From assembly GCF_010731295.1 (NCBI RefSeq), contig NZ_AP022579.1, positions 4,960,001-5,024,000 of the forward strand: a stretch of DNA of 64,000 nt. The letters are read 5' to 3'. The translations under genes and the position numbers were made by a program. The notes below the pieces were generated by a model. It saw nothing but the letters and a program-made list of their open reading frames with translations. It was not told the origin of the DNA and made no database searches. The DNA is from Mycolicibacterium boenickei (GTDB lineage: Bacteria; Actinomycetota; Actinomycetes; Mycobacteriales; Mycobacteriaceae). Shown piece after piece: positions 1 to 14,650 of this stretch (position 1 is the stretch's first letter; each line of letters starts with the position of its first letter).

Positions 1-2
1 CA

Positions 3-119: not shown

Positions 120-135
120 AGAGGAAGGTCCCACC

Positions 136-423
136 ATGGCCGACTTCAAACCCACGCACCCCGGCGAGATCCTGGAGACCGAGTTCCTGGAGCCGATGGG
201 GATCTCTGCGTACGTACTCGCGAAGACCATCGACGTCCCCCAGTCCCGTATCAGTGCGATCATCCACGGACGGCGCGGAATCACCGCCGACACTGGCCTG
301 CGGTTGGCGAAGGCGTTCGGGTTGTCGGACATGTTCTGGATCAACATGCAGGCCCGGTACGACGCTGACATGGCGCGGGTTGAGCATGGCGCCGAGTTAG
401 CGAACATCTGCCCGCTGCGGTGA
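136..423 (+). CDS. HigA-family antitoxin / Xre-type HTH regulator
   Basis: This 95-residue protein has the HigA signature: an N-terminal HPGEIL segment, then a helix-turn-helix (about residues 30-65, with a SRISAIIHGRRGIT recognition region) and the LAKAFGLSDMFWINMQARYD tail typical of the VapI/HigA antitoxin group. HigA proteins bind their own promoter and usually pair with an upstream HigB RNase. No HigB is visible in the 119 bases upstream, so the gene may be an orphan antitoxin or regulator of the element. A purine-rich ribosome site (GAGAGGAAGG) precedes the ATG. Confidence 0.85.
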   Translation: MADFKPTHPGEILETEFLEPMGISAYVLAKTIDVPQSRISAIIHGRRGITADTGLRLAKAFGLSDMFWINMQARYDADMARVEHGAELANICPLR

Positions 424-516
424 ACGCAAGGCGAGATGAACCGGGGAAGAAAGGAGGCATCCCCGGGTCACCCGCCGGGTGACCGAGCAAGAGAAAGGCA
501 AGCTCGGGCACCCAAG

Positions 517-684
517 TCAGGACTCTGCCACCGGGCACCGACAAACCCGAACAGCGCCGAGGCGTTCATCAAGCAGCTCGTCGGCCCGCGCGATCCTCGG
601 CAACGGCTCACCATCCCGCCGGCACGCAGCACGAACCACCGCGATCAACCAAAGCTCGGTATCAATCGCCTCAATGGTGCGCAT
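517..684 (-). CDS. Small hypothetical protein, 55 aa
   Basis: A short reverse-strand frame encodes MRTIEAIDTELWLI followed by a charged helix ending in a RADELLDERL segment. The amphipathic composition and the MRTIEAID start look like small proteins found in actinobacterial prophages, an impression from memory. No clear ribosome site precedes the ATG, so it may be leaderless. It fills most of an otherwise gene-free gap between higA and the PIN gene. Function unknown. Confidence 0.45.
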   Translation of the reverse strand: MRTIEAIDTELWLIAVVRAACRRDGEPLPRIARADELLDERLGAVRVCRCPVAES

Positions 685-807
685 ACCGGATTAGACGGTA
701 TCCACCACCAAACGGTTCCCCGGGGGGCGGATTCGCCTATCCCCCTTCAGTAATCCACTCCAGACCAGCTACATTGGCGGACCACACCACATGTCACTGA
801 GGGGGTC

Positions 808-1962: not shown

Positions 1963-1967
1963 GCACA

Positions 1968-2744
1968 GTGGCCGAGTCCGATGGATTAACTGATGAGATT
2001 GTCTCAAACAAATGGCTGGAGATCGCTTCGGCGATCGAGGGGGTAGTGGCACGCATCCAGGACCCAGATGACTTCATTGTGCAGACATCGTCTGAGCTTG
2101 CCGGGGACGATGCCTGCAGCAGTCCCTACCACCTATCCCACTGCGCACGATGGTGTCTCAACGCTGGCGTAGACCATCTGCACGCCCTCAAAACGTTGGT
2201 CATAGATTCGTCCGTAATCCATTCGTCTGCCGACTACAGCCTCGCTCGTGGAGCCCTCGAAAATTTCGGTGCTGGATTTTGGCTGCTACATCCACCTGAC
2301 CGGCGGATCAGAGTTGAACGAGCAATGCGGTGGTGGGCAAAGAATTTCAAAGACCAAAGCAGAGCTACAAAAGGTATGCCAAACGAGACCCCATTAGCGC
2401 CCAAGCTCGACAAACTTGTAGACATCGCGCGTGCAGCCGACTGTGATCTTAAGCGGATACGAGATGGCTACACTTCTTCAGAAGCACTGCAATACGCAGA
2501 TCAGTATTCGTTGGCCCGCAGACCCTACTTAATCTGGCAAGTTTGCTCCGGCTTCGCGCACGGGCGACCCTGGGCCAATATTGGGATGAATGCGATGGAG
2601 AAACGTTCCACCGCGGACGAAGGTGTCTCGCTTGTTCGCTTGACCACAGATTACAAACGCTTGCTTGGCATCGCGTGGCCTGCGACGAGGCTGATGGAAG
2701 ATTTCCTAAGGCTCTACCAAGATCGCGCAAAACAAGCGCCGTGA
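1968..2744 (+). CDS. Hypothetical protein, partner of the PIN-like protein
   Basis: The GTG start lies 5 bases after the PIN gene stop, so the two are almost surely one operon. The 258-residue product is mostly helical and soluble, with a HSSADYSLARGALENF segment (about 85-100), WLLHPPDRR, and a SGFAHGRPWA segment (about 195-205). I have the impression of similar segments in uncharacterised actinobacterial proteins but cannot name a family. A HEPN-like helical fold was considered, but the R-x4-6-H motif is not convincing. It may modulate the nuclease. Confidence 0.6.
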   Translation: MAESDGLTDEIVSNKWLEIASAIEGVVARIQDPDDFIVQTSSELAGDDACSSPYHLSHCARWCLNAGVDHLHALKTLVIDSSVIHSSADYSLARGALENFGAGFWLLHPPDRRIRVERAMRWWAKNFKDQSRATKGMPNETPLAPKLDKLVDIARAADCDLKRIRDGYTSSEALQYADQYSLARRPYLIWQVCSGFAHGRPWANIGMNAMEKRSTADEGVSLVRLTTDYKRLLGIAWPATRLMEDFLRLYQDRAKQAP

Positions 2745-2842
2745 GTCCCTGGTCTTTCGTCTGCCCGACCTGGGCAGATCGGGCCGCCTTGTCCGATGCG
2801 CGAGCCGTCAGTCTGAGCAGCATTATTTCCGAGTGAAAATTG

Positions 2843-2872
2843 TTGACACTACATGCCAAGGGTTTTCCTTGG
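2843..2872 (+). promoter_or_regulatory. Candidate promoter and operator before the GAF-like membrane gene
   Basis: A consensus -35 hexamer TTGACA (2843-2848) is followed by a perfect inverted repeat CCAAGG-N5-CCTTGG (2856-2872), about 80 bases before the ATG at 2952. The repeat sits where a -10 spacer would be and could be an operator or part of an RNA hairpin. The -10 element itself is not obvious. Confidence 0.4.
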
Positions 2873-2951
2873 AATCGGCTGTGGGCCGATGCTCATCAGC
2901 GATAACTTTTGAGGATACTGCGAGCATCGGAACTGCACGGGGGTCAGTGCC

Positions 2952-3731
2952 ATGGCTGTCAAGTGGGGAACGTTAAGCAGGTTCATTCTGACGGTAGTAG
3001 CGATTGTCGGAGTGCCAACCTGCACCTTGTTCGTCAAGCGCGCAGATGGCACCTATGACTGGCGGTGGTTCGGCGGGCAAATCTTCTTCGTATTGCTGGC
3101 TGCCGGAGTCCCCGCATATGCAGCCTGGCGGCGGAAGCGGACAGAGATAAGCGACCTTACGCGCTCCCGGCTCCACTTGAGTTTTACTCTGAACCCAGTC
3201 TTGCGGCGGATAGTCAGGCGCACTGTCGAGGACCCAGCAGCCCTGCGGAACGAAATTAGAGCCATCGTCGTTCGGGCCGCTGCAGATATCGTCGGTCCTG
3301 GGTTAATGACACGGTCTTGTTACTTTGAGCTGGTCGAAGTAACAGCCCAGCCGGCACAGGCCGCCCCACTCAAACAGCTCGTATTGGAGGAGCAGGCGGG
3401 TCGGGCAGACCCAGTTCTTTCCGAGTTCACGAGCGCAACCCCCCGGGGGGCGGACGCGATCAAGCTGGTGATGACCGATGGTCAGGTCCGGTGCCGTGAT
3501 GTCATCAAGGAACCTCTGCCGCATTGGGCGGATGACGGAGATCAGACGTACAAGACCTTCATATCTGTTGCGGTCGTCGGTCACGGCACCGCATACGGCA
3601 TGCTGACCGTTGATGCGCCGAAAGCCGGTGACCTCGACAAACGCGACGTCTACCTCCTGCGCGCCATGGCGGGACTGATCGCGGTCGCCAACACGATCGC
3701 TCAGGTTGTCCCTGGTGCTGGCCAGCAATAG
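2952..3731 (+). CDS. Membrane-anchored GAF-like domain protein
   Basis: The 259-residue protein has two membrane helices near the N-terminus (about residues 8-28 and 38-58), separated by a short loop with KRADGTYDWRW, then a cytoplasmic domain. Its last third (TYKTFISVAVVGHGTAYGMLTVDAPKAG and LLRAMAGLIAVANT, about 195-250) reads like the end of a GAF domain, a ligand-sensing fold. No effector domain is visible. It lies in the AT-richer cargo segment after the PIN operon and has its own upstream region. Membrane sensor or abortive-infection effector are both possible. Confidence 0.6.
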   Translation: MAVKWGTLSRFILTVVAIVGVPTCTLFVKRADGTYDWRWFGGQIFFVLLAAGVPAYAAWRRKRTEISDLTRSRLHLSFTLNPVLRRIVRRTVEDPAALRNEIRAIVVRAAADIVGPGLMTRSCYFELVEVTAQPAQAAPLKQLVLEEQAGRADPVLSEFTSATPRGADAIKLVMTDGQVRCRDVIKEPLPHWADDGDQTYKTFISVAVVGHGTAYGMLTVDAPKAGDLDKRDVYLLRAMAGLIAVANTIAQVVPGAGQQ

Positions 3732-3785
3732 GCTTACCGGCACGTACACTATCTATGTCAGTAGTTATACGAGAGGCGGGTTGCG

Positions 3786-3920
3786 ATGGCAGTGACGATG
3801 AAGCCCGTTCATGACGAGCTGAACGAGCGCGCAGAGAAGATCCTCCAGAACCCGACGGCTTACTACGCCGAGGCGCGTGAGCTGGCGCGCGAGGAAGTTA
3901 AGAAGGAGATGGAGGGCTAA
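3786..3920 (+). CDS. Small helical protein, 44 aa
   Basis: A complete 45-codon frame starts at ATG 3786 after a GAGAGGCGGG ribosome site. The product is one amphipathic charged helix (LNERAEKILQNPTAYYAEA then ELAREEVKKEMEG), the look of a small antitoxin or a phage regulatory peptide. It follows the GAF-like gene by 54 bases and is the last rightward gene before the leftward block. Function unknown. Confidence 0.55.
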   Translation: MAVTMKPVHDELNERAEKILQNPTAYYAEARELAREEVKKEMEG

Positions 3921-3958
3921 AACCAGCCCCGTCATTTCTCTACACACAGGTCGTGGGT

Positions 3959-4165
3959 TCAGCGCACCAATCGGGTGTCGCCGATCCCTTTTGCATCGCT
4001 GGTGTCGTCACAGTGCACATCACAACGCCGCTTTCTATGGGCTCGATACGACTTCATCCGGCAGGAATCAGAGCACCAACGGCGCCGTCTGCCAGTGACG
4101 CGTTCAGGCACCCGATGCCCGCACCAACCGCACGGAATCAAGGCCGGCTTTCTCCTGCTCCACAT
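3959..4165 (-). CDS. Small zinc-finger protein, phage type
   Basis: The start at 4165 is chosen because a strong AAGGAG site lies 8 bases upstream. The 68-residue product has a CGWCGHRVPER knuckle followed by WCSDSCRMKSYRAHRKRR. This CxxC...CxxxC finger with a basic tail is common in small actinophage proteins, probably for DNA or RNA binding. It converges with the 44-aa gene and is the leftmost gene of the leftward block. Confidence 0.65.
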   Translation of the reverse strand: MWSRRKPALIPCGWCGHRVPERVTGRRRRWCSDSCRMKSYRAHRKRRCDVHCDDTSDAKGIGDTRLVR

Positions 4166-4290
4166 GCAATTACTCCTTAATGCGGGGCGTGCGGTTCGAA
4201 AACCTGGGGAACCGTACAGACAAGAATCATCAGCTTCCATCCGCTACTGAGAGGGGACGGCGGGTAGGGGGTCCAGGCCAGGGGGTCTAG

Positions 4291-4791
4291 TCAGTCTGGA
4301 TCCTCATCGTGATCACCGAGGTCCATCTCGAAGGTGCTTTGGTAGAACGACTCTGGCCATTCGTCCCAGCCTTCGGGGACCGTCCGAAGGACGCTGTTGC
4401 CTAAGTCGGCGAGCTGCCAGATCAGTTCCCCAGCGCCTTTGGGTCCGTGCTTGCCGACGTCGTCGGGAAGGTCGTCGGTGTAGTGGCGAATGTTGTTCCA
4501 CACCGCTTCCCAGTCACCTTCGAATGCTGCGTTGACAAACCGATGTGCGTCTTCGTGTGGCCCGCAGACGAGGTTGTTGTAACGGATCTCCATCCAGGTT
4601 GAGCCAGTCTTTGGATTGTCTTCGACCAGTTCGTGGACGAAGTAGGCGAGGTGGATCAACAGGTCCACGATGGGGTGATCGTGTTCATCGATCCCGTAGT
4701 CGGCGAGGATTGCGTATCGCATTCGGGGATTCCCGTGGCGAGCGCAGCGCACTAGTTGTACTGCGTCGCGGCGGATCGGTGCTCTGTTCAT
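4291..4791 (-). CDS. Hypothetical phage protein, 166 aa
   Basis: The start overlaps the stop of the HNH gene by 4 bases (ATGA), indicating translational coupling. The product is acidic and soluble, rich in Asp, Glu and Trp (LIHLAYFVHELVEDN, WEAVWNNIRHYTDDLPDDVG), with no membrane segment or recognised motif. Its position after HNH suggests a role in the same module. Family not recognised. Confidence 0.6.
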   Translation of the reverse strand: MNRAPIRRDAVQLVRCARHGNPRMRYAILADYGIDEHDHPIVDLLIHLAYFVHELVEDNPKTGSTWMEIRYNNLVCGPHEDAHRFVNAAFEGDWEAVWNNIRHYTDDLPDDVGKHGPKGAGELIWQLADLGNSVLRTVPEGWDEWPESFYQSTFEMDLGDHDEDPD

Positions 4792-5105
4792 TTCTTGTGC
4801 CTGTCCCGTGCTGTTTTCTTCTTATGGCAATCCTTGTGTACAGCTCGGAGATTGTGGCCGTCTTCGTTTCCACCGCGTGCTTGGTTGCGAACATGGTCGA
4901 CTTCGGTGGCGCCAGGGGTGTTGCAGAGGTAGCAGATGCCGTTGTCGCGGGCGAGGATTCGGGCACGTGTGGCGTCCCAGCCTTTGGGCTTCTTCCAGTT
5001 GCTGGTTCCCCAGCCGTATGGGTATGGGTGTTGCGGGCAGCGGGTGCCGCCGTGCACGAGTGTCGTGCATCCATCTGCAGTGCAGACTTTCGGCGCTCTC
5101 GGCAT
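4788..5105 (-). CDS. HNH endonuclease
   Basis: The 105-residue protein has an N-terminal zinc pair (CTADGC...CPQH, residues 8-26) and a classic HNH core: CYLC, then EVDHVRNQARGGNEDGHNLRAVHKDCH (about 59-95). The DH, N and H residues form the metal site and the Cys pairs bind zinc. Phage HNH proteins of this size usually sit next to the terminase and help DNA packaging. Here no terminase is visible on either side, so packaging, homing or satellite interference are all possible. Confidence 0.9.
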   Translation of the reverse strand: MPRAPKVCTADGCTTLVHGGTRCPQHPYPYGWGTSNWKKPKGWDATRARILARDNGICYLCNTPGATEVDHVRNQARGGNEDGHNLRAVHKDCHKKKTARDRHKK

Positions 5106-5116
5106 GTTGCGTCTCG

Positions 5117-5398
5117 CTAGTCTGCTAGGCGCACCTTGTCATCTGATGTGACGACGTAGGTGCGGGTGTGTCGGTCGATGAAGATTGGGACGTCGGAGGC
5201 GGTTGGGACTGGCCCGTCGAAGTGGTCGAGTTGGTTACCGCTGATGGTGAGTGGTTCTGCGGCGTAGATCTTTTGTGTGAATAGGGATTGAGCGGCATGT
5301 GGATCGTTGGGCTCTTGTTGCTCGCATTGGGCTCTGAGGGTGCGTCCGTAGAGCCCGCGCAGTCGTACCCATTGTGTGGGGTCGATGGGTGCGGTCAT
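5117..5398 (-). CDS. Hypothetical protein, 93 aa
   Basis: The frame starts 2 bases after the 49-aa gene stop and ends 11 bases before HNH, so it belongs to the leftward operon. The product has a basic helical start (WVRLRGLYGRTLRAQCEQQ) and a beta-rich C-terminus (DVPIFIDRHTRTYVVTSDDKVR). No family recognised. Confidence 0.55.
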   Translation of the reverse strand: MTAPIDPTQWVRLRGLYGRTLRAQCEQQEPNDPHAAQSLFTQKIYAAEPLTISGNQLDHFDGPVPTASDVPIFIDRHTRTYVVTSDDKVRLAD

Positions 5399-5400
5399 GG

Positions 5401-5550
5401 TCAGTACCCCGCTCCCGCGTAGCGGACGTTCTGTGTTCCCGCTTCTTTAGTGAAGCGGAGACGGATCTCCAACGATTCACGGTTGGCGTCGTTTTCGAAG
5501 TCTTTGAGGATCTGGTTGACAGTTTCCTCGTGCGGGTGAATCAAAGGCAT
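5401..5550 (-). CDS. Small hypothetical protein, 49 aa
   Basis: A longer frame continues upstream, but the start at 5550 has a good AAAGGAG site 9 bases before it and the upstream part has shadow-like composition. The product begins MPLIHPHEETVNQILKDFEN and contains ESLEIRLRFTKEAG. It is the first gene after a 353-base hairpin-rich gap. Function unknown. Confidence 0.6.
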   Translation of the reverse strand: MPLIHPHEETVNQILKDFENDANRESLEIRLRFTKEAGTQNVRYAGAGY

Positions 5551-5903
5551 TGTGAGTGCTCCTTTTACGCGTGATGTTTGGGTGGTGCCGCCCAGCCCGA
5601 ACGACATGAGACAACTGGGCGGCACCGTTGCGCGGGTGCGGCGTCCGAGATCGCAACCACCAGAAATCTCAGGTGCACTGCCGCGCAAGCTTTGTGGTGG
5701 CCCCGCCCCGTCACCGTGCATGGGAAGAAAACCGGTGTGGGGGGCGGGGCCGTTGTGGCGCTGTCCTGCCCTGGTGTGTCTAGGCCAGTGCGGTGTGCGC
5801 CGGGTGGTGCGCCGTTGAGGGTGACTACCTCGGGCGTACCGTTCGGGCGGAGTCACGAGCAGGTGCCGTTGCGGCGGTTAGCTCGCCACCCGAAGCTCTT
5901 GGT
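5551..5903. other. Gene-free gap with two long hairpins
   Basis: No convincing coding frame lies here. It holds a perfect 12-bp stem GGTGCCGCCCAG/CTGGGCGGCACC (arms 5584-5595 and 5615-5626) and a perfect 11-bp stem GGCCCCGCCCC/GGGGCGGGGCC (arms 5699-5709 and 5741-5751). Neither has a following T-run on the transcribed strand. They may be factor-dependent terminators, RNA processing sites or protein-binding sites that separate the tape measure genes from the HNH genes. Confidence 0.6.
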
Positions 5904-6668
5904 CTACTTCTTTTTCCGGTCCGGGTCGTATTTGGACGGATCACTAGGCGGCACGGAAATGCGGTGTGCGACGAAGCCTTGCTTGATCCTGCTGGCATCG
6001 GCACTGATGAGCTGGAGAGCCTGCTCGGCGCGATTCAGTTTGGCTTTGGCTGCGCTGTATTCGGGTACGACTGTCGCCACGTCCGAGTCGATCCAACTGC
6101 TGGGAGATCCGACTGATTGCAGGTAGGTCGGTAGCTCTTGGAGGAGGGTCCCGAGTTCTTCGCGGCTTGCTTTGGCTACGAGTTCGCGGGCGACACCAAG
6201 CTTGTCGCCTTTCGTACTGTCGAGGAGTCGTTCGGCGCGGTTCCAGTAGCGGGTGGCTCGGGATTCGGCGGCTACGTCGCCGTTTGGTGAGAGGGCGCGG
6301 AAGGCATTGTCGGCTTCCTGTTTGGCTTCATCGCGGCGGGCTCTCACTCGCTCTACGTGGTCATCGATCACCTTCACGGCGTCGGTGTTGTTGAATGCGT
6401 CGATCTGTTCGCGGTAGCCGTCGGTTGAGTAGCGGTGCTTGTTGGCGTCGACCGCTTTGAGGTGTTTGCCGAATTCGTTGTACGCGTGGACGATCGCGGC
6501 GTGCGCCTGTTCTACGACGGTGCCTTCTGTTCTTGCGGCGCGAACCTTGACCGGCTGGGGGTCGATGCGGTACTCGTCGGGAGGGGGCGGTGCGACGTAG
6601 TTGTCCCGTTCGGGGTACATCGACTGTGTGTCGCCGGGTTCTGCGTAGAGTCCGTTTCCGATTGCCAT
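5904..6668 (-). CDS. Hypothetical helical protein downstream of the tape measure gene
   Basis: The 254-residue product has a proline-rich start (YVAPPPPDEYRIDPQP, residues 24-39) and a long alpha-helical middle rich in Ala, Arg and Glu (about 50-240). It ends with a PSKYDPDRKKK tail. It starts 33 bases after the tape measure stop, with an AGAGGAG site. In ordinary siphophages this place holds a large distal tail protein, which this is not. It could be a structural or scaffold-like factor. Family not recognised. Confidence 0.55.
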   Translation of the reverse strand: MAIGNGLYAEPGDTQSMYPERDNYVAPPPPDEYRIDPQPVKVRAARTEGTVVEQAHAAIVHAYNEFGKHLKAVDANKHRYSTDGYREQIDAFNNTDAVKVIDDHVERVRARRDEAKQEADNAFRALSPNGDVAAESRATRYWNRAERLLDSTKGDKLGVARELVAKASREELGTLLQELPTYLQSVGSPSSWIDSDVATVVPEYSAAKAKLNRAEQALQLISADASRIKQGFVAHRISVPPSDPSKYDPDRKKK

Positions 6669-6701
6669 GTGGTTGTTCTCCTCTAAATGTGGTGGTGCTG
6701 C

Positions 6702-9700
6702 TTACATTCCTGGTGCGGCGTACATGTTTTGCAGGTGGTAGCCGATGTCTCGGCCTTGGGCTGCTCCGTCGTCGCGGGTTGTGGTGACGTTGATGTCGCC
6801 GAATGTGGGGCCCGGCTGACCGCCTTGGCCGTGTTGGGTGGTGTTGGGGTCGACTTGGTTGGGCTGCAACGGTTCAGCACCCTTGCCTGCAAGGTTGGGT
6901 AGAGCGGGTGCAGCTCCGGCGAGTCCGCCGACGATGCGGGTGAGCCAGTTGTTGCTCGCCAACTCGCTGCCACCTGTAGGCAGGAACGTTTCCATCAAGC
7001 CTTGGGCGCCGATGCCGGCTACCTGTCCGCCGTACTGGATTGCCCGGTTGATGAGTTTCATGCCGGTTTGTGCGGCTTGGCCTGCGCCAGGAGCCATTGC
7101 GTCGAGTGCCATTCCGCCGGCCTGCATCGCGATGCCCATGGCGCCGCCGCCATCCATAGCGATGCCGCCGGAGCCTGAGCCGGATGCGGGTGCCACGTTT
7201 GCACCGATCTGTGTGGTGTTGAGCGGGGCGCCCATTGGGAGCCCTTGTGGCATGCCGGAAGCCATCGGACCGCCTGGCATTGACGGGACGCCGGTAAGTG
7301 GCGGCAGCGCAGGAGTGTTCGACGCTGGGCCGTAGCTCGGTGCACCGACGGTGGCCGGGGAAGCGGGAGGCCCGATCGATGCGGGACCGACACGTGTCGG
7401 CGTGATGTTGTTGCTGCCCCCGGGCTTGTACCAAGCGTGGACGTGGTCCTGGTGATCCTGCGTCGGGTTACCGGTGTGGCCGGACTTGTAGTCCTGCGGC
7501 GTCAAGCCGTGGCCGTAGCCGTACGTCTTGTTGTCGAAGATCGCGCCGTAGACGTTGGGGTCACTGAGCACTTGTTGGAGAACCTGTTGGCCCTGGGCAA
7601 GGTCCTTGACCATGATGTCCAGCGCACCGTTCTGATGCTCGCCCGCATAGTCTGCGGCGTGATCGCCGACGGTGAGGCCCTGCTGCTTCCAGAACGGCAT
7701 CATTACGCGGTGGGCGAAGTCTCGTGCGGATTCACCCGGTTTGGCCATACCGCTTGGGCCGAAGGGCATTCCGCTAGCAGCAGCCGGGTAACTCATCGCG
7801 CCAGCGACACTGCCGCCGCTGAGACCGCTGACCAGGTCGGCGTACTGGTTGTTCTGATACATCGGCCCGAATGCGCCTTGCGCGGCGAGCACACCCATCA
7901 TCCCGTGTCCACCCTGCGTGGGATTGGCCTTCTCGATGGCTGACAATTGGCCGAGTAGTGGTGCGGCGGCGAGGTTGGCGACGAACTTCGTGATGTTCTC
8001 GGCGATACCAACCAAGCCCTTCGAGATACCGAAGTCCGCATCCAGCGATGCGCCAACATCGCCAAGATCCTTGGTCAGTCCTTCAAGCTTCTTCGCGTAC
8101 TTGTCCGACTGCTTCGTCAACTGCTCATACTGGTTTTGACGAGCTTCACCCATACGCATCTCAGCCGCGTCGAAGTCGCGTTGTGCCATTGCGGCTTCGT
8201 TGCGGGCGTTGAGCCGGTCGTCTTCGGTTGCGTTGGCGTCACGCTCCAACTGCGCAACACGAGCTGACTTTTCGGCCAACTTCTGGCGGGCGTCTAGGAA
8301 GCTGGACTCAGCACCGAACACTGAAGCGTCAGCGGGCATCCCGAGGATTCCGGGCGGCAAGCTGGTGTCATACGGGACCACTGGGGCGTCGGGCAGCTTC
8401 GGGCCGGAACCTGAACCAGCTCCGCTACCTGGTGCATCCAGGATCGGGTTGCCGGCAGGCGCATACCCAGCGGGGCCGTTCAGCGAGAAGGGAGCCAAGC
8501 CGTCACGGCGGGCAGGGTTGGGGCGGACCTGAGCCTGCCAGTCGTCATAGTCGAATAGGCCGCTGCCGCCTCCATACCCGGGAACGTTGAACTTGTTCTG
8601 CGGGGTATCGAAGTATGCGCGCCCATCCTTGTCGAACTTCACCTCGGGCAACCCAAGGTCAGTGGCGTCCTTCTGATCGGACTGCAACCCGACCATCGCC
8701 GGACCGCCCCACTTCATCAGCGTTGCCAACCAAGCCGGAATCTGTATCCCAGCAAGAGCGGCACCGATGCCCTTGGCAGCCTTGTCGGCCTTGCCTGGCA
8801 ACACATCCAGTGCGCCGCCAGCCTTGCCGAACATCCCAACGAGATCGCTGACAGTCTTGAAGACACCGATCGTCTTCCACGCTATGAACGCGGCGGCAAC
8901 GATCTTGATGGTGTTCTCCGTGCCGCCAAGAGCGTTCTTCAGCTCGTTCAACAGTTCAAGGATCGTCTTGCCTGCTGCCACACCGTCTTCGAAGAACTTT
9001 CGAATGTCGCCCTGGTGTGCGTTTACCCATCCTCCGACGTCATCGACGCGGACTCGCAGCGTCTTCAGCACCTCTACGAGTTCGTTGCCGTCCTCAGTGG
9101 GCTTCCCGAAAATCGCACCCAGGAAGTTCGCACCCAGGCGGGCCACCGACGTTTGCATGTTCGACATGGCGCCCTCGATGGTGTCGCCAGATGCCTTCGC
9201 AAACCCCGACGCATGCGACTCAACAGCCTTCATCAAATCGTTCAGGCCGACCTTGCCATCAGAGATCAACTTCTGAAGCTCACCACCGGTAACACCCAAC
9301 TGCTCTTGCAGCCAAGGAAGAATCGGAATGTTCCGAAGCTCGTTACCGATCTCCTCCATCGACACCTTGCCGGTATTCGCGATCTTCAAAAACGCGCCAC
9401 CGATCTCATCAACACCAGCCCCGGCGAACCCGGCAGCATCCGTGACAACGGTCATGAACCGCTTCAGATCACCCGTGTTCGACGCCAACGCCCGAGTGGC
9501 AACAGAGAACGCCTTGTCCATCGCGAACGGTGTATCCGTCACTGCCTGCGTGACCGTGTCCATCACGGCCTTCACATCGATACCCGCACGCCCGGTCGAC
9601 TCCAGGGTGCGGTTCAGATTCTCGAGTCGGTTCTTCGCCGCATCAATCGACTTGTAGCGTTCAAAACCCTTGAACAGGGTGAGGCTGGCTGCGCCGATCA

Positions 9701-10067
9701 GACCGCCGGCAGCGACCGTGAACGCCGTACCAAGAGCCTTACCGGCAAGCGAACCAACCTGAGTAGCGGAACCCTGATATCCGGCAAGGGCGGACGTGAA
9801 ACCACTCGTGTTGCCCACAGTCTGGCCGACTTGCCCGGTAAACCCGGTACCGAAGTTCCTGCCCGCAGTCTGACCATGCGTCGTGAACTGCCCCGTAACC
9901 CGCTGCCCAATATTGCTCGTAGACCGATCAATCGCCGCAGACATCCCACGACCCGCAGCATCACCAGCCGACGTACCAGCAGCACCAAACTGGCGCTCAA
10001 TCCTGGCAGCGGCAACAGCGGCAGAACGCTCATCGAGGCGCGCTATAACGTCGACTAGGATTGGCAT
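6702..10067 (-). CDS. Phage tail tape measure protein with C-terminal peptidase-like segment
   Basis: The 1,121-residue protein has the tape measure layout. A Gly/Ala-rich N-terminus is followed by a core (about residues 120-330) with FERYKSIDAAKNRLENLNR, FSVATRALASNTGDLKRFM, SMEEIGNELRNIPILPWL and the DTIEGAMSNMQTSVARLG repeat. A hydrophobic helix near 390-415 and a coiled-coil stretch near 600-680 follow. Residues about 770-880 (ARDFAHRVMMPFWKQQG, GDHAADYAGEHQNGALDIM, HQDHVHAWYKPGG) look like the His-rich peptidase-like domain of mycobacteriophage tape measures. The protein sets tail length, roughly 0.15 nm per residue. The usual frameshifted tail chaperone pair is absent upstream. Confidence 0.92.
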   Translation of the reverse strand: MPILVDVIARLDERSAAVAAARIERQFGAAGTSAGDAAGRGMSAAIDRSTSNIGQRVTGQFTTHGQTAGRNFGTGFTGQVGQTVGNTSGFTSALAGYQGSATQVGSLAGKALGTAFTVAAGGLIGAASLTLFKGFERYKSIDAAKNRLENLNRTLESTGRAGIDVKAVMDTVTQAVTDTPFAMDKAFSVATRALASNTGDLKRFMTVVTDAAGFAGAGVDEIGGAFLKIANTGKVSMEEIGNELRNIPILPWLQEQLGVTGGELQKLISDGKVGLNDLMKAVESHASGFAKASGDTIEGAMSNMQTSVARLGANFLGAIFGKPTEDGNELVEVLKTLRVRVDDVGGWVNAHQGDIRKFFEDGVAAGKTILELLNELKNALGGTENTIKIVAAAFIAWKTIGVFKTVSDLVGMFGKAGGALDVLPGKADKAAKGIGAALAGIQIPAWLATLMKWGGPAMVGLQSDQKDATDLGLPEVKFDKDGRAYFDTPQNKFNVPGYGGGSGLFDYDDWQAQVRPNPARRDGLAPFSLNGPAGYAPAGNPILDAPGSGAGSGSGPKLPDAPVVPYDTSLPPGILGMPADASVFGAESSFLDARQKLAEKSARVAQLERDANATEDDRLNARNEAAMAQRDFDAAEMRMGEARQNQYEQLTKQSDKYAKKLEGLTKDLGDVGASLDADFGISKGLVGIAENITKFVANLAAAPLLGQLSAIEKANPTQGGHGMMGVLAAQGAFGPMYQNNQYADLVSGLSGGSVAGAMSYPAAASGMPFGPSGMAKPGESARDFAHRVMMPFWKQQGLTVGDHAADYAGEHQNGALDIMVKDLAQGQQVLQQVLSDPNVYGAIFDNKTYGYGHGLTPQDYKSGHTGNPTQDHQDHVHAWYKPGGSNNITPTRVGPASIGPPASPATVGAPSYGPASNTPALPPLTGVPSMPGGPMASGMPQGLPMGAPLNTTQIGANVAPASGSGSGGIAMDGGGAMGIAMQAGGMALDAMAPGAGQAAQTGMKLINRAIQYGGQVAGIGAQGLMETFLPTGGSELASNNWLTRIVGGLAGAAPALPNLAGKGAEPLQPNQVDPNTTQHGQGGQPGPTFGDINVTTTRDDGAAQGRDIGYHLQNMYAAPGM

Positions 10068-10231
10068 ACGCCGACCCCCTCATCGACCACTCCCGTTGCG
10101 CCACGGCGCTTTCGCGCCTTTCCGATGGGGTGCTCACAAAGAGGCCCACGAACCCGAACCTGGAGGGCGTCCCACTCATCGTCAGGCAGCGCCGCTAGCG
10201 CCTCTTCCAAGGCTGCTTGCAGTGTTCCCAC
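10055..10231 (-). CDS. Small hypothetical protein, 58 aa
   Basis: The GTG at 10231 is preferred because a GGAGGAG site lies just upstream, inside the end of the HTH gene, and an upstream TTG has none. The product starts with a helix (GTLQAALEEALAALPDDEWDAL) and has a basic tail. It overlaps the HTH gene by 50 bases and the tape measure start by 13 bases, physically joining the regulatory and tail segments. Function unknown. Confidence 0.55.
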   Translation of the reverse strand: MGTLQAALEEALAALPDDEWDALQVRVRGPLCEHPIGKARKRRGATGVVDEGVGVCQS

Positions 10232-10586
10232 GGCGTTTCTCCTCCGCGTAGTCCTCAACGATGGAGCGGCGAAAGATCTTTGTCTTGCCCACGGTTATGC
10301 CATCGAGGTCCCGGAAGAGGCGCTGAGTTTGGCGCACTGTGAGCCCGAGGATCTTGGATGCGATGGTGGTGCCGATCCATTCTTCTTCTGGATCTAATTC
10401 TCCAGTGGTGCCCTGTTTTTCATGTCGCCGTGACGACATGGCGCGGACCTCTTGGTCAAGACGCTCATACAAGTGACCCACCCAACCCTCAACCGGAATC
10501 GGTTTGGGTTTGTTCAAAGTTCGTCGCCGTATCTCAGCTGAGACAACTCGGTACGCGTCACATATCTCACGCTCGCTGAGGCTCAT
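10182..10586 (-). CDS. Helix-turn-helix DNA-binding protein
   Basis: The start at 10586 overlaps the stop of the previous gene (ATGA). Residues about 20-50 form a charged helix (AEIRRRTLNKPKPIPVEGWVGHL). Residues 75-120 (WIGTTIASKILGLTVRQTQRLFRDLDGITVGKTKIFRRS) fit a MerR/HTH_17-like winged helix that reads DNA. The 134-residue product is probably a transcriptional regulator of the element, possibly of the tail genes that follow. Confidence 0.65.
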   Translation of the reverse strand: MSLSEREICDAYRVVSAEIRRRTLNKPKPIPVEGWVGHLYERLDQEVRAMSSRRHEKQGTTGELDPEEEWIGTTIASKILGLTVRQTQRLFRDLDGITVGKTKIFRRSIVEDYAEEKRRGNTASSLGRGASGAA

Positions 10587-10858
10587 AAACCGCCCTCCGC
10601 CATCGTGATTCGTGATGCTGCTGTACGCGCCAGTCGCCGGTCCTTGCCACCACGCCGGTACAGTTCGACCAGCAAGCGTGAATCCTGTGGCGGAAGGTGC
10701 CCCCAAAGCAGAGCCTCGTTGAGCGCGTCGCGATATTCCGATAGTTCACTGTCGGTTGCGGATTCGAACTCCAGAGGGGATCGAGGCTGGCGCATCATGA
10801 TCGCCAGTTCCGGATGCGAAGGAAACTGCGCGCCTCCACGGCGGTTGGCCCACCTCAC
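10583..10858 (-). CDS. Hypothetical protein, 91 aa
   Basis: Coupled by ATGA overlaps to WhiB upstream and to the HTH gene downstream. The product is helical and charged (SATDSELSEYRDALNEALLWGHLPPQDSRLLVELYRRG). No recognised motif. Its fixed place between WhiB and HTH suggests it belongs to the same regulatory module. Confidence 0.6.
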   Translation of the reverse strand: MRWANRRGGAQFPSHPELAIMMRQPRSPLEFESATDSELSEYRDALNEALLWGHLPPQDSRLLVELYRRGGKDRRLARTAASRITMAEGGL

Positions 10859-11145
10859 GCGATTTGTCGGGGCTCAGGCCGGCCAGGCGGCATCGGATTC
10901 GGGCGTGCCGCCGTAACGCCCCCAGGACGCTTCGATTTCGGCAAAGAGTCAAACCACGCAGCACAGGCTGAAAGCGCTAGACAGGACCGGCAGAGATGAA
11001 TGGCAGCCTCGTGACGCTCCGCCGCATGCTCGACAGACTCACGCTCCTCACGCGCATCAAACAATTCATGCTTGCCGACACACTTCGCACCCTCTAACCG
11101 GGGGACATCGGAGAGCGCCCCGAAAAGCCCTTCGAGATCACTCAC
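10855..11145 (-). CDS. WhiB-family iron-sulfur protein, phage type
   Basis: This 96-residue protein has the four cysteines that hold a [4Fe-4S] cluster: C22, C52, C55 and C61 (C-x29-C-x2-C-x5-C). The usual G-V/I-W-G-G turn that contacts sigma factor A is not intact; the segment reads RPGGVTAARP. Phage WhiB proteins such as the one from TM4 can down-regulate host whiB genes. GTG start at 11145, overlapping the DUF6011 gene by 8 bases. Confidence 0.85.
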   Translation of the reverse strand: MSDLEGLFGALSDVPRLEGAKCVGKHELFDAREERESVEHAAERHEAAIHLCRSCLALSACAAWFDSLPKSKRPGGVTAARPNPMPPGRPEPRQIA

Positions 11146-11296
11146 TTACACCGCCGCACTTCGGTCCGACGCCAGCCAAGACAGAGGCGGGATCGGTCAA
11201 CCAATGTCCACAAACAGAACAGCGGACCGCGATCCGCCAACCTGCCAGATCATCTGTAGATGGTGCTGCCTCGGGGATCGTTTCTGGGAGCGTCAT
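11138..11296 (-). CDS. DUF6011-type small zinc protein
   Basis: The start at 11296 overlaps the ATPase gene stop (ATGA). The 52-residue product ends with VRCSVCGHWLTDPASVLAGVGPKCGG, the CxxCg-x-LtdP-S-x-GvGPxC pattern of a small zinc-binding family common in actinophages. Exact function unknown. It is translationally coupled to both neighbours. Confidence 0.75.
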   Translation of the reverse strand: MTLPETIPEAAPSTDDLAGWRIAVRCSVCGHWLTDPASVLAGVGPKCGGVSE

Positions 11297-12465
11297 TCGG
11301 AGCCTCCCAAGTACGAGCACTCCATGCATTGCCCGCTCTCAATGGAGCCCTGTATGACAAGAGCAGTGCCACACTGGCAGGTAGGTGTTACGTCTGTTTC
11401 GACTGTTACGTTCGCATCGTTTTCGCTGATAAGAGCTGGGTTTAGGTACGCAACAGTGCCGTTCGTAACACTCGTAACGGTCGTAACACTCGTATATGCA
11501 CCGCGTGCGGCTTTGACAATCCGCTCAGCACCCGCCAGTCGGTTGAGATAGACGCGAGCCTGGTCATTGGCGATGCCAAGCGCTTCGGCCACGTCAGACG
11601 CTGTCGTGTGCAAATGCGGGGCACGGTCGTTCACGACGGTCAATACGTCGAGTGCCCGGTCGCCCAGATTCTTCGTCTCACGCCGCGTCTGAGCCTCGGT
11701 TGCAGCCGAGGCTAGGTCGGAACCCGACAAGGTCCAAGCGCCTTCTGCTGTGGTGAAGGCGTATTCCCCCTCAGGAGCATCTCGTCCTGTGACTTGCAAC
11801 GTGGCGTCATTACTGCCGCGCGACCGCCTCAGCACTAACACGTAATCTGCTGAGCCGGCTAGGCCGAGGGTGCCAGACAAGTCATCAACGAAGTCATCTG
11901 AGGACGCCTTGCGCGTGTGATGCACACCGAGCAGTGCTGATCCCGGAAAGGCGTCGACAATCTCTTTCAGCGCAACACCTGCCTGATAGTCGGCCAGGTA
12001 TGGATCATCAGCCCGCTTGCGTTGCTGACGAGCGCGTCCCAACGTGTCAAGAATGATGAGCCCGCCAGGATTGCCGATGAGCCAGGTCGTGATCGTTGGA
12101 ATAAGTAGGCCAGGCGGTACTGAGGTCAGGATGTGCAGCTTGTGTGGCGGCATGTCGGCGCCGTACACAGCTCGGATCCGGGACTGCAACCTTCGTCGTG
12201 AATCTTCCAACGCCAGCAACAGAACCGGTTTTTGATCGACCTTGATCTTGCCGAACGCGGAGCCACCTGCCGCCACCGCGAGCGCAAGATTCAATGTCCA
12301 CCAGCTCTTTCCGAGCTTTGGCGGGCCAGCGACAATGCCGAACCCCTCCTGCACGATGCCGTGCACGAACTGCACCAACTCAGGAAAGACCTCGTTGTGG
12401 AGTTCGGCAGCAGTGATAATTCCAGCGAGAAGGTTGACTTCAGGCTCTACCTCGACCGTCGTCAT
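11293..12465 (-). CDS. RepA-like AAA/RecA-fold ATPase
   Basis: The 390-residue protein has Walker A GPPKLGKSW (47-55), a sensor-like LLLALEDSRRRLQSR, Walker B GGLIILDTLGRAR (about 133-145) and GVHHTRK, the pattern of the AAA_25 replicative helicase group in plasmids and phages. A winged-helix-like segment (about 285-325, TTASDVAEALGIANDQARVYLNRL) and a C-terminal zinc ribbon-like CQCG...CMEC follow. It probably unwinds the element origin during replication. It overlaps the genes on both sides by 4 bases. Confidence 0.8.
   Translation of the reverse strand: MTTVEVEPEVNLLAGIITAAELHNEVFPELVQFVHGIVQEGFGIVAGPPKLGKSWWTLNLALAVAAGGSAFGKIKVDQKPVLLLALEDSRRRLQSRIRAVYGADMPPHKLHILTSVPPGLLIPTITTWLIGNPGGLIILDTLGRARQQRKRADDPYLADYQAGVALKEIVDAFPGSALLGVHHTRKASSDDFVDDLSGTLGLAGSADYVLVLRRSRGSNDATLQVTGRDAPEGEYAFTTAEGAWTLSGSDLASAATEAQTRRETKNLGDRALDVLTVVNDRAPHLHTTASDVAEALGIANDQARVYLNRLAGAERIVKAARGAYTSVTTVTSVTNGTVAYLNPALISENDANVTVETDVTPTCQCGTALVIQGSIESGQCMECSYLGGSE
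11387..11487. repeat. CGTAAC repeats inside repA (possible iterons)
   Basis: CGTAAC occurs three times at a 9-base period (11464, 11473, 11482) and twice inverted as GTTACG (11387 and 11405). The direct set encodes a repeated Val-Thr pattern. Iterons inside rep genes are known origins, but coding repetition alone could explain this. Confidence 0.3.
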
Positions 12466-12785
12466 GCGACGACCTCGGTGAGGGTGGCGAGATCGCGCCG
12501 GCCTACACGCCAGAGTGCGCGCCGCGTGGGGATCGTAAACAGTGGCATTAGGCCGTGCTGGAGAAGAAGTTCGGCGGCATTGATAGCAGCTTCTATCTGC
12601 TGGTCAGTGAGTTCCGGATCGTGACAGCGACAAATCCAGGGATCCTGACATCCGCATTCGAGAGGCTGGCAGCGGTGCGCCGCTTTGCGACGTCGGTCAA
12701 GTGCGCTAAACTGTTGAGAGAGAATGTGGTTCGTGGTGGGCCGGTCCTGGTGGTGCGGGGCCGGTTCATTTTTTGGGTGCGTCAA
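12462..12785 (-). CDS. Cys-rich small phage protein, 107 aa
   Basis: A TTG start at 12785 has an excellent GGGAGG site 6 bases upstream and no internal start is better. The product holds HRCQPLECGCQDPWICRCHDPE (about 37-58), a possible zinc site, then a helical C-terminus (IEAAINAAELLLQHGL). The stop overlaps the ATPase start (ATGA). It is the first gene of the leftward replication operon. Family not recognised. Confidence 0.6.
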   Translation of the reverse strand: MTHPKNEPAPHHQDRPTTNHILSQQFSALDRRRKAAHRCQPLECGCQDPWICRCHDPELTDQQIEAAINAAELLLQHGLMPLFTIPTRRALWRVGRRDLATLTEVVA

Positions 12786-12817
12786 GTCGCACCTCCCGTC
12801 GTATAGGGCTCATGCGG

Positions 12818-12880
12818 GCACTTATTCAGTTGTGGTTCAGCGACTTTGATGTGGTAGTCACTGCACTTATTCGGTTGTAG
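12818..12880. repeat. Pair of 18-bp direct repeats, candidate operators
   Basis: GCACTTATTCAGTTGTGG (12818-12835) and GCACTTATTCGGTTGTAG (12863-12880) differ at two positions and start 45 bases apart. They lie in the 117-base gap between the excisionase gene and the leftward replication operon. They may bind the excisionase or an element repressor. Confidence 0.55.
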
Positions 12881-12902
12881 GGTCTGCGTGTTTGCCGGAT
12901 GC

Positions 12903-13091
12903 CTAACTGCCAGCAAACCGTTCCAGGTCGCTGAATCGGATACGGAGAAGCTTTGGTCCGATCCGCCTTCCCGGGATTAGGCCGCGCGCAATGTAGTTGC
13001 GCACAGTGCGGTCGGTGACGTGCAGGTAGTCGGCTGACTGCCGCAGCGTCAGCAACGTTTCCTCAGATGGTGCCGTTTGCGTGAAAGTCAT
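12903..13091 (-). CDS. Excisionase-type HTH protein
   Basis: This 62-residue protein is almost entirely a MerR-like winged helix: LTLRQSADYLHVTDRTVRNYIARGLIPGRRIGPKLLRIRFSDLERF. This is the excisionase family pattern that bends DNA at attachment sites to direct excision. It lies 213 bases downstream of the integrase gene on the same strand, the usual recombination module. It could also act as a repressor. Confidence 0.85.
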   Translation of the reverse strand: MTFTQTAPSEETLLTLRQSADYLHVTDRTVRNYIARGLIPGRRIGPKLLRIRFSDLERFAGS

Positions 13092-13128
13092 GGAAATATT
13101 CGAACATACGTTTCCCTTGGTTGAGGGG

Positions 13129-13143
13129 GTCTAGAAACTAGAC
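13129..13143. promoter_or_regulatory. Perfect palindrome upstream of the excisionase gene
   Basis: GTCTAG-AAA-CTAGAC is a perfect 6-bp inverted repeat 38 bases upstream of the excisionase ATG, a good operator position. The sequence GGGGGTCTAG that begins it recurs at 4281-4290, upstream of the zinc-finger gene. Confidence 0.45.
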
Positions 13144-13179
13144 ACCGGAAGACGTTCCGTCGAGTCTCGGCTCAAACAA

Positions 13180-13216
13180 GTGCCCCTGAACTGCCCTTTC
13201 AGCACTTCAGGGGCAC
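13180..13216 (-). terminator. Hairpin downstream of integrase
   Basis: A perfect 11-bp stem GTGCCCCTGAA/TTCAGGGGCAC (13180-13190 and 13206-13216) lies 89 bases past the integrase stop. No long T-run follows on the reverse strand, so it may be a factor-dependent terminator or a structural element. Confidence 0.45.
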
Positions 13217-13255
13217 CCCTGACCAGCCCTCGAAAAGCAAGCCTTCTCCTTTAAA

Positions 13256-13271
13256 TGTGACATAGATCACA
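13256..13271. promoter_or_regulatory. CRP-family binding site
   Basis: TGTGACATAGATCACA matches the CRP consensus TGTGA-N6-TCACA exactly. Mycobacterial Crp and Cmr bind such sites. It lies between the integrase stop and the excisionase gene, in an AT-rich patch. Confidence 0.6.
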
Positions 13272-13304
13272 TCAATTCTTGGACCGGGCCTGACCGTCGG
13301 TCAG

Positions 13305-14456
13305 CTACTCGCTCGTGGACTGCGCGAGTGCCGCCATGCGTTCAGCAATGGTGCGGTCCCTGCCCTGGGCTGCGTGCTGGTAGCGCAGCGCGGCTTGAGG
13401 ACTCGAATGTCCAAGTCGCGCCATCAGTTCAGCCAGGGTGGCGCCGGCTACAGCCGCCATCACGGCACCGCTGTGCCGGAGGTCGTGCCAGCGCAAGTCT
13501 TCCCGGCCAGCAGCCGCGCGAGCCTTGTAGAAGTGCCGATACAGGGTGCTGGGCTGCAGGTGCCCGACTCCCCCGACTGGCGGGAACAACAGAGCGTCCT
13601 TGCCTTTGCCCACATATTTGTCTAGGTGGAGTTGTAACGCAGGGATCATGTTTGACGGCAGCACCACGTCTCGTTTACCAGCGGCGGTTTTCGGATCCCC
13701 CTCGATCCATTCACCCGTGAGGCGTACAGCTCCCCTGCGCACTCGAACCACGTCCCCGGCGATATCGCCGCGCCTGAGTTCTACGAGTTCACCGAATCGC
13801 AGCGCTCCCCATGCGGCGAGCAATGTCATGGCTCGCAGGTTCTCGGGCATCGCGGCGACGAGAGTGGCCAGCTCGTCGTGGTCGAGGGGTTTCGGTTTAA
13901 CCTTGCGCTCCGACTGTCCAGCGCCCTTGATGACGCAGGGGTTGGCATCTAGGAGCTTGTCGTCCGTAACGGCGGTTTCAAGGATGGACCGCAGCAGGCT
14001 ATATGAGTGCGCCCGGATGGTTGGCGTATCCGGATCGAGCTTGCGATACCAGCGGTCGACGGATTCGCGGGTGATGTTGGCGACAGGCTTGGATCCGAAC
14101 GTTGGGTTGATGTGGTGTTCGAGCAGTTTTCCGTAGTGCGCTTTGGTTCGGGGTTTCAGCGGCTTGCCCTTCACTAGGCGCTCGTCTACCCATTTGTTGG
14201 CGTAGTCACCGAAGGTCGTGGCCTTCTTCTTCGCCTTCTTAGTCTGCTCAGCAGTAGCCGGTGGAGACCACAGCTCCCGGTCGATCTCGCGGCGGCGGTC
14301 GGTGAGCCAGGCTTCGGCGTCGATCTTGGCGGCAAAGGTGGCAGGAGCCGGGTACACGATGCCGTCCGGCCCCGTGTACGCAGCTTGCCAGCGACCGGAT
14401 GCGCGTTGGCGGATTCGTCCGAAGCTCCGCCGCTCCCTTACCTGTCGTTTCGCCAT
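13305..14456 (-). CDS. int: Tyrosine recombinase / integrase
   Basis: The frame opens upstream, but the ATG at 14456 has a GGAGGG site 8 bases before it and begins MAKRQVRERR, a normal integrase start. The 383-residue product has an N-terminal arm-binding region (SFGRIRQRASGRWQAAYTG), a SAM-like core-binding domain (about 70-160) and a catalytic domain with ALRFGELVELRRGDI (first Arg), WHDLRHSGAV (His-x-x-Arg), LGHSS and a final Tyr in AALRYQHA. It faces away from the tRNA fragment 160 bases upstream. It catalyses insertion at and excision from the tRNA site. Confidence 0.95.
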   Translation of the reverse strand: MAKRQVRERRSFGRIRQRASGRWQAAYTGPDGIVYPAPATFAAKIDAEAWLTDRRREIDRELWSPPATAEQTKKAKKKATTFGDYANKWVDERLVKGKPLKPRTKAHYGKLLEHHINPTFGSKPVANITRESVDRWYRKLDPDTPTIRAHSYSLLRSILETAVTDDKLLDANPCVIKGAGQSERKVKPKPLDHDELATLVAAMPENLRAMTLLAAWGALRFGELVELRRGDIAGDVVRVRRGAVRLTGEWIEGDPKTAAGKRDVVLPSNMIPALQLHLDKYVGKGKDALLFPPVGGVGHLQPSTLYRHFYKARAAAGREDLRWHDLRHSGAVMAAVAGATLAELMARLGHSSPQAALRYQHAAQGRDRTIAERMAALAQSTSE

Positions 14457-14619
14457 CCGCTTACCCTCCATTTTGGGCAATATATGGGCAATAACAATAC
14501 CTACGAGATTCCCCAAACGGTCCTTGATTCCCGTGTTTCTGTTGGGTACTGTAACGCATATCAGCAGGTAAGACGCCTGTTGTGGCTGGTAAACCAACTA
14601 GCCGAGAGAACTCTATGAT

Positions 14620-14647
14620 ACAGGTTCAATCCCAGTATCGCGCACCA
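14620..14647 (+). other. attR candidate: 3' fragment of a tRNA gene (tRNA-Val-like)
   Basis: The stretch reads as a tRNA 3' end: T-arm ACAGG-TTCAATC-CCAGT, acceptor strand ATCGCGC, then ACCA. One T-stem pair is an A-A mismatch and no matching 5' half (expected acceptor GCGCGAT) is found upstream, so it is a fragment. That fits a host tRNA split by insertion, with the intact copy expected at the left end outside this window. The end resembles mycobacterial tRNA-Val, the known attachment gene of the M. tuberculosis element phiRv2. Confidence 0.7.
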
Positions 14648-14650
14648 CTA

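Follow-up and report, generated by a model that had tools for sequence, protein, structure and literature searches.

The window analysed here, a 64,000-nucleotide stretch of the 6.59-Mb genome of Mycolicibacterium boenickei (C1:4960001-5024000; contig NZ_AP022579.1, assembly GCF_010731295.1), holds the larger, right-hand part of an integrated element of ~16.3 kb that, judging from its sequence, is reasonably likely to be a cos-type phage satellite which carries its own tape measure protein (TMP) and would use the capsid, terminase and tail parts of a helper phage. Satellites with a TMP of their own have so far been shown in one family, the phage-inducible chromosomal island-like elements (PLEs) of Vibrio cholerae; the siphovirus-type element described here, with its cos-like site, would be a new variant.

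The element is delimited by a perfect 26-bp direct repeat, one copy of which is the 3' end of a tRNA-Val(gac) gene (L003 8328-8353; tRNA at 8278-8352) and the other lies at window positions 14623-14648. The original prediction had proposed to follow the DNA leftwards to the attachment (att) site; attL was indeed located 1.67 kb left of the window start, with the left end of the element at window coordinate -1672 (C1:4958328), so that no head module is hidden at the left. A search of 60 genomes with the right flank gave long matches in G020, G021 and G049 besides the own genome. In G020, the site is empty (L083), with an intact tRNA-Val and the homologous right flank no more than 0.6 kb behind it; the G049 locus contains the attR of that genome's own element, and the exact att core was not seen in the G021 locus. 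The tRNA-Gly at 16724 is not the integration target; a tRNA-Gly copy inside a 105-bp repeat adjoins attL. An integrated state, an own integrase and precise att sites, as expected of a satellite, are all present. The features that bear on this interpretation, in window coordinates, are:

1..14648, no strand: in-window part of the putative integrated satellite (26-bp direct repeats)
14623..14648, no strand: attR core, copy of the tRNA-Val 3' end (26-bp repeat; empty site in G020)
13305..14456, minus strand: tyrosine integrase (phrog_1, 3e-62; Pfam Phage_integrase, 6e-16; 55% identical to the integrase of sister element L053)
12903..13091, minus strand: excisionase-like HTH_17 protein (Pfam HTH_17, 8e-11; phrog_7506, recombination directionality factor, 5e-7)
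12462..12785, minus strand: small Cys-rich protein ahead of RepA (open reading frame, ORF; tblastn matches ahead of RepA in L046, L050, L051 and L052)
11293..12465, minus strand: RepA-like AAA_25 ATPase (Pfam AAA_25, 5e-23)
11138..11296, minus strand: DUF6011 small protein (PF19474, 7e-11; longest ORF to 11329)
10855..11145, minus strand: WhiB-like regulator, weak (phrog_9926, 1e-4; 46% identical to the L099 homolog)
10583..10858, minus strand: 91-aa protein of no clear family (ORF)
10182..10586, minus strand: o174 (longest ORF to 10706; matches between RepA and TMP or o254 in L046, L053, L058 and L099)
10055..10231, minus strand: o67, small protein whose gene overlaps the start of the TMP gene (matches immediately ahead of o254 in L058 and L099)
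6702..10067, minus strand: TMP, 1,121 aa (phrog_1942, tail length tape measure, 1035 bits; Pfam TMP_3, 8e-18)
5904..6668, minus strand: o254, found in satellites, often paired with a TMP (57 homologs)
4788..5105, minus strand: HNH protein of the terminase/cos-associated type (phrog_144, 9e-20; homologs end the Wachhund and phiGD20-1 genomes)
4291..4722, minus strand: acidic protein between HNH and the cos-like site (gene model; ORF to 4791), of no clear family and without a match in the 11 sister loci tested
4192..4243, minus strand: cos-like site (22.5 bits with a phage-only weight matrix)
3959..4165, minus strand: o93, a zinc-finger-like protein of 68 aa encoded immediately behind the cos-like site (start set at 4165, not 4240)

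In leftward order, the right part encodes integrase (Int), the excisionase-like protein (Xis), the Cys-rich protein, the RepA-like ATPase, DUF6011, the WhiB-like protein, small genes, TMP and o254, followed by small ORFs, HNH, the acidic ORF, the cos-like site and o93, which occupies the place where phages have the small terminase subunit (TerS). The TMP is thus grouped with replication genes rather than structural genes, and the RepA-like ATPase is, from its AAA_25 domain, probably the replication protein of the satellite. All ORFs of the overlapping leftward operon described in the original prediction exist, and the two TMP profiles bear out its 1,121-aa tape measure. Its seven junctions (from 12465/12462 to 10067/10055) are right if internal starts at 11296, 10586 and 10231 are used, six overlaps being of 4-13 bp and one of 50 bp. 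The RepA-like assignment stood up as well; that of WhiB is only weak, with a Pfam Whib score below the cut-off.

The lack of head, packaging, tail-tube and chaperone genes, also pointed out in that prediction, holds in PHROG scans and in comparison with phage Wachhund. With the exception of the TMP, no head, portal, large terminase subunit (TerL), tail-tube, chaperone or minor-tail PHROG family is the leading match of a scanned protein of the element; HNH and two helix-turn-helix (HTH) proteins also touch TerS profiles, not as best match. In a tblastn search (E 1e-4) with 27 Wachhund proteins including the structural set, the element was matched only by the TMP and, weakly, the integrase. No match to a tail assembly chaperone was detected in the element. 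With the left end followed to att, the element contains neither the gene set of a siphophage prophage (head, packaging, tail-tube, lysis) nor a recognisable major capsid gene, which together with an integrase operationally defines the phage-inducible chromosomal islands (PICIs).

Such a composition could also result from decay of a prophage by deletion, with head, packaging and most tail genes lost and TMP, HNH and cos kept, which had been put forward as the simpler alternative. TMP, HNH and cos all look phage-derived, a Wachhund-type lysin match is lacking in the element, and o254 is interrupted by a stop codon in the relative L058. Nevertheless, decay appears distinctly improbable. RepA matched 7 of 50,697 phage records, none labelled actinophage, and neither o254 nor o93 matched any of them; these same genes recur in other genomes together with different TMPs that come from different phage lineages. 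Furthermore, HNH, cos and o93 are found together in three elements, the TMP frame is intact with a low ratio of nonsynonymous (dN) to synonymous (dS) substitution rates, and exact att-like repeats of their own were found in 6 of the 14 sister TMP carriers examined (L046, L053, L055, L065, L075, and L078). A deletion scar of one phage is unlikely because RepA, o254 and o93 lack actinophage matches, sisters exist, and o254 shares its locus with a TMP in 9 of 12 cases; the unique scar without sister elements that would have spoken for decay was not what the genomes contained.

In a genus sample of 198 genomes, matches to the TMP (1e-20) were found in 20 and to RepA (1e-15) in 12, the own genome included in each case, and matches to o254 (1e-5) in three. 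Based on gene maps, the 20 TMP loci outside the own genome comprise 12 satellite-like and 8 prophage-like ones (L074 and L066 were sorted mainly on gene sizes). An integrase-family gene is present in 8 of the 12 satellite-like loci and as a fragment in L068; none was seen in the retrieved DNA of L062, L067 and L070. The TMP occurs without a recognised capsid in the element described here, in L053 and L065, and in two loci of the RepA search, L046 and L055; with a match of the major capsid protein (MCP) type in L060, L062, L067, L068, L075 and L077; and with TerL, portal, protease and MCP in L069, L070, L072 and L078. Sister elements occur in other mycobacteria and in Nocardia. L053 occupies this tRNA-Val locus too, next to the same kinase gene, shares 45% identity in RepA and 34-36% over ~420-440 aa in the TMP, and keeps the order Int, Xis, RepA, o174, TMP, with DUF6011 before RepA rather than after it. 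The search for the same gene order in other mycobacterial genomes that had been suggested therefore did find it in similar form, and this recurrence indicates that the arrangement is not due to chance. The delimited sisters L046, L053, L055 and L065 encode 53 further predicted proteins, of which 46 were scanned; the seven left out had been labelled earlier, one as an Ad3-like connector in L055. The scan gave 49 PHROG families, and the 25 listed include one TerS, one head closure and one HNH family and no major head, portal, TerL or major tail family. L067 and L068 encode, in addition to an MCP-type match and a TMP, a protein of ~400 aa that resembles minor tail proteins and might be a tail tip provided by the satellite.

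The TMP of the element is, over aligned codons, ~80% identical to the phage TMPs of L111 and L112, the latter being a phage locus that also encodes portal, MCP, tail tube, chaperone and minor tail proteins. The substitution rates are dN 0.15 and dS 1.18 against L112 and dN 0.16 and dS 0.92 against L111, that is, dN/dS of 0.13-0.17, ratios to which substitutions in the phage lineages also contribute. In 50-residue blocks, identity to L112 is 92-100% over the first 300 residues; the last 71 residues are 100% identical to L111, and the middle is variable, equally so between L111 and L112 themselves. Conserved ends and a middle that varies as it does between phages are as expected for a working ruler, and by its sequence the TMP, intact in frame, would serve as one. 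This weighs against an explanation in which the satellite is real and its TMP is an interference factor, an excess of which would titrate the chaperones or tail tube of the helper or poison its tails, the particles carrying the helper TMP. An operon that places the TMP among replication genes and not structural ones fits such a role, and tail-assembly interference is a reported defence (PMC11364771). However, the conservation pattern just described is as expected for a ruler in use, and deletion of tmp in a PLE lowers satellite transduction (PMC12987554), so that interference seems unlikely.

A change of the helper's tail length, the purpose suggested in the original prediction, is not supported for this element, with 1121 aa against 1149 and 1162 aa in the nearest phages (2.4-3.5% shorter); the other half of that proposal, a satellite with its own TMP, is supported by the att sites, the empty site, the sisters, the satellite-only genes and the cos-like site. 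In a second satellite-phage pair, the lengths are 1328 and 1336 versus 1332 aa. Satellite TMPs are on the whole somewhat shorter than phage TMPs (medians in the tree set, a non-random sample of related rows: 1179 aa, n=21, versus 1292 aa in phage loci, n=13; Mann-Whitney p 0.04), and in distant tree pairs L053 (953 aa) and L099 (1242 aa) are much shorter than L071 (1388 aa) and L066 (1695 aa), respectively.

In a tree of 34 TMPs, 21 from satellites and 13 from phages or prophages (L104, L105 and L107 were left out), the two kinds are interleaved. There are 12 changes of label, at least 10 of them forced by well supported branches, and the labels cluster no more than shuffled ones (mean 10.6 changes); the labels derive from gene maps, some branches are long, and the interleaving would fit transfer in either direction. 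The TMP from the window is sister to that of L112 (support 97/94), and that of L103 to the TMP of phage phiGD20-1 (100/99). Interleaving of this kind, and the missing TMP between o67 and o254 in L058, would also fit a TMP that is a mere passenger, exchanged by recombination with helper phages and without a role in the satellite. This is highly improbable, considering that the TMP recurs in many different satellites, pairs with o254 in 9 of 12 loci and keeps its frame intact, all of which argues for selection.

The protein o254 is 90% identical to proteins of Mycolicibacterium fortuitum. The 12 o254 loci are those of the element, L058, L059 and L099-L107, L103 and L104 being near-copies. The TMP missing from L058, L059 and L100 is present in the other nine (cut at the contig end in L107), and in eight of these it stands immediately upstream of o254, separated from it by no more than one small gene; the ninth, L099, carries it on the far side of HNH and cos. 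In L058, WhiB, o174, o67, o254 and HNH follow one another without it, so that the TMP behaves like a cassette. The TMPs beside o254 also differ in origin, that of L103, a locus probably from M. abscessus, being ~85% identical to the TMP of the M. abscessus phage phiGD20-1 and that of the window resembling L111 and L112. Probably, o254 is an assembly partner of the TMP or, as a guess, a factor that redirects heads or tails. A phage scaffold and a tail chaperone were tried as its identity and found no support (hhalign probability 0.1 and 0.5 percent, respectively); the best PDB profile match (E 0.009) is to a 'Conserved protein'. The gene of ~106 aa between TMP and o254 in L103, L106 and L107 gave no functional match (L103 copy searched). 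In the same position, Nocardia locus L101 encodes (9624-9839) a 71-aa protein similar to the C-terminus of phage scaffolds (phrog_2592, 0.005; pairwise), a candidate capsid redirector; a scan of the element for this scaffold-like motif found none. L105 (IMGVR_UViG_2667527720_000005) has five separate HNH-like stretches on a 16-kb contig (7071, 11009, 11991, 12834 and 14798) along with MCP-like and scaffold-like genes, and L107 encodes a minor-tail-like protein of 483 aa.

The packaging side of the element is represented by HNH, the cos-like site and o93. The HNH protein is similar to gp101 of Wachhund and gp118 of phiGD20-1, both encoded by the final gene of the respective genome, and HNH proteins can facilitate packaging with terminase (PMC9611059, citing Kala et al. 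2014). Some 550 bp downstream, on the same strand, lies TCTGTACGGTTCCCCAGGTTTTC, which resembles the genome starts of phiGD20-1 and cluster-F phages; by analogy with phage ends, a nick is predicted near 4232/4233. A weight matrix built from seven phage starts with three distinct sequences (the Squirty and ThetaBob starts, without the motif, were left out) scores 22.5 bits here, the next best score in the element being 11.0 and the best one in 77 kb of host DNA 14.2. Among the sisters, L099 and L107 reach 26.2 and 23.3 bits within ~150 and ~75 bp of their HNH genes, and their o93 homologs (73% and 78% identical over 45 aa, respectively) start 40-65 bp behind these sites, so the module is conserved in three elements. 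In L101, the HNH gene is followed by a shorter, related string; in L058, no cos-like string was found. The first comparison, with a single phage junction, was only moderately significant (4 of 300 shuffles reached the score), and blastn of the region against phages gave nothing relevant. A 10-base cluster-F overhang alone proved uninformative, with 27 matches in the window (at most one mismatch) versus 33 expected.

The pattern CTGTACGG-(0-1)-TTCCC-(3-5)-TTTT occurs in 3 of the 198 genomes, with no match for the reversed control. The matches are the present element, a prophage in G184, between HNH (two small ORFs upstream) and TerS/TerL, and G161; because the pattern was partly drawn from the site of the element, G184 is the independent match. 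The G161 match falls in an integrase-bearing island (L125, G161:C1:4449000-4468999) with a 15-aa o93-like match behind the site. The TMP had no match there; the island may be another satellite that is packaged in this way. At the sequence level, the element has a cos motif of the cluster-F/phiGD20-1 type with an HNH gene upstream.

Taken as a satellite with its own tape measure, the element might function as follows. Upon infection by a siphophage related to L112, phiGD20-1 or cluster F, the island would excise and replicate with RepA. The helper terminase, aided by the satellite HNH and perhaps o93, would cut the satellite cos and fill helper-made heads. The helper would supply tail tube, chaperones and tip, and the tail would be built around the satellite TMP, yielding chimeric tails as in the V. 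cholerae PLEs. The gain would probably lie in compatibility or escape and not in a new length, the satellite having a tail core to use when the helper TMP is blocked or fits less well. As 16.3 kb is much less than a helper genome, small capsids or multimers would be needed, a role for which o254 is a candidate.

Several observations weigh against the satellite interpretation. A resident helper was looked for in the host genome with phrog_9 TerL and with the Wachhund TerL, the latter without a positive control, and neither search gave a match. Eight of the 10 scored sister loci have no cos-like match above 14.0 bits, and the HNH gene of the element is ~550 bp away from the cos-like site, with an unrelated ORF between them. 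L058, an o254 element of similar order, has neither TMP nor cos-like site, so the TMP is dispensable in some relatives; the L105 TMP frame is only 675 aa in the gene model. No profile match links o254 to phage tail chaperones or scaffolds, and the element, unlike the PLEs, has no recognisable chaperone or hub gene. In favor of the satellite interpretation, the major tail protein (three reference phages) was matched in 7 of 10 prophage-like loci (the eight above, L111, which is cut, and L112) and in none of 13 satellite-like ones (own included), but this is a description rather than a test since the sorting of loci partly used tail genes.

The left part of the element is encoded on the plus strand and comprises, next to an Xis-like HTH protein, the following genes:

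136..423, plus strand: HigA-type antitoxin/HTH, left cargo (phrog_1381, 7e-23)
808..1962, plus strand: PIN_8-domain protein, left cargo (PF18476, 2e-46)
1968..2744, plus strand: o258, cargo protein beside PIN_8 without a family match (ORF)
2952..3731, plus strand: GAF-domain protein, left cargo (PF13185, 7e-7)

A divergent master repressor switch is a feature of PICIs. At the left end of the element there are a HigA-like and an Xis-like HTH gene, and a clear divergent pair was not seen. PIN_8, o258 and GAF (window 808-3731), on the strand opposite to the operon, are cargo-like; a defence function was considered and dropped, PADLOC giving no match to any of the three. Two further islands are present in the same genome. 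L114 (C1:709000-728000) is satellite-like, with integrase, WhiB-like, MCP-like (384 aa) and short TMP-like (739 aa) genes; L113 (C1:3124000-3142000) is integrase-bearing, with Xis-like and MCP-like genes and no TMP match.

Among known systems, the V. cholerae PLEs (PLE11, PLE1 and PLE4; tmp-tac(-bhuB)) are similar in encoding a TMP and in depending on a helper for most of the virion, which for the present element would follow from its genes. PLE11 particles contain the PLE TMP without that of the helper ICP1, and tmp deletion cuts PLE11 transduction by ~99.9% (PMC12987554). The PLE11 TMP is 95 aa shorter than that of ICP1 and the tails are ~10 nm shorter (PMC12987554), so that a small length change accompanies substitution there. 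According to the same report, the satellites that are well characterised take over phage tails, PLEs being the first for which chimeric tails are known; putative tmp genes are also noted in other putative satellites, capsid-forming PICIs (cf-PICIs) included (PMC12987554, Extended Data Fig. 10 legend). The differences are that ICP1 has contractile tails, that PLEs have a gene for a tail chaperone and in some cases one for a hub, that the PLE11 TMP is 20% identical to that of ICP1 versus ~80% to phage TMPs here, and that the cos/HNH module and o254 are present here.

The candidate PICIs of Mycobacterium, phiRv1 and phiRv2 included, are likewise small and integrated, often at tRNA genes, with some replication genes and few virion genes, but are defined by integrase plus major capsid gene (Abad et al. 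2023; PMC10654092). That definition would not include the present element, in which no capsid gene was found; 'tape measure' does not occur in the text of PMC10654092. Similarly to the element, cf-PICIs are satellites with some virion genes, and L069, L070, L072 and L078 look to be of this type with a TMP in addition; the element differs in lacking capsid, portal and terminase genes. Cos-type PICIs and Staphylococcus aureus pathogenicity islands (SaPIbov5, EcCIEDL933) carry a cos sequence recognised by the helper terminase; to our knowledge, no TMP has been reported in these. In a search of titles and abstract starts, mostly of openly accessible papers, there was no report of a TMP in a mycobacterial satellite.

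Altogether, it is possible, if only tentatively proposed, that TMP piracy is common and has evolved repeatedly in actinobacterial satellites, from capsid-less to capsid-forming ones, each with a TMP of the sort that phages of related hosts have. In one lineage, TMP, o254, HNH, cos and o93 might form a head-tail routing module, by which DNA is cut at the satellite cos, tails with the satellite TMP are steered onto satellite heads, helper parts are used, and factors acting on the helper TMP are escaped. If siphovirus-type satellites also substitute the TMP, tail piracy would be a wider rule and not a cholera oddity, and capsid-based surveys miss such satellites by definition. The satellite cos and TMP point to the phage class expected as helper, which makes the question directly testable, and the element would offer a natural setting in which to ask what makes a tail core of its own necessary for a satellite if tail length is barely altered.

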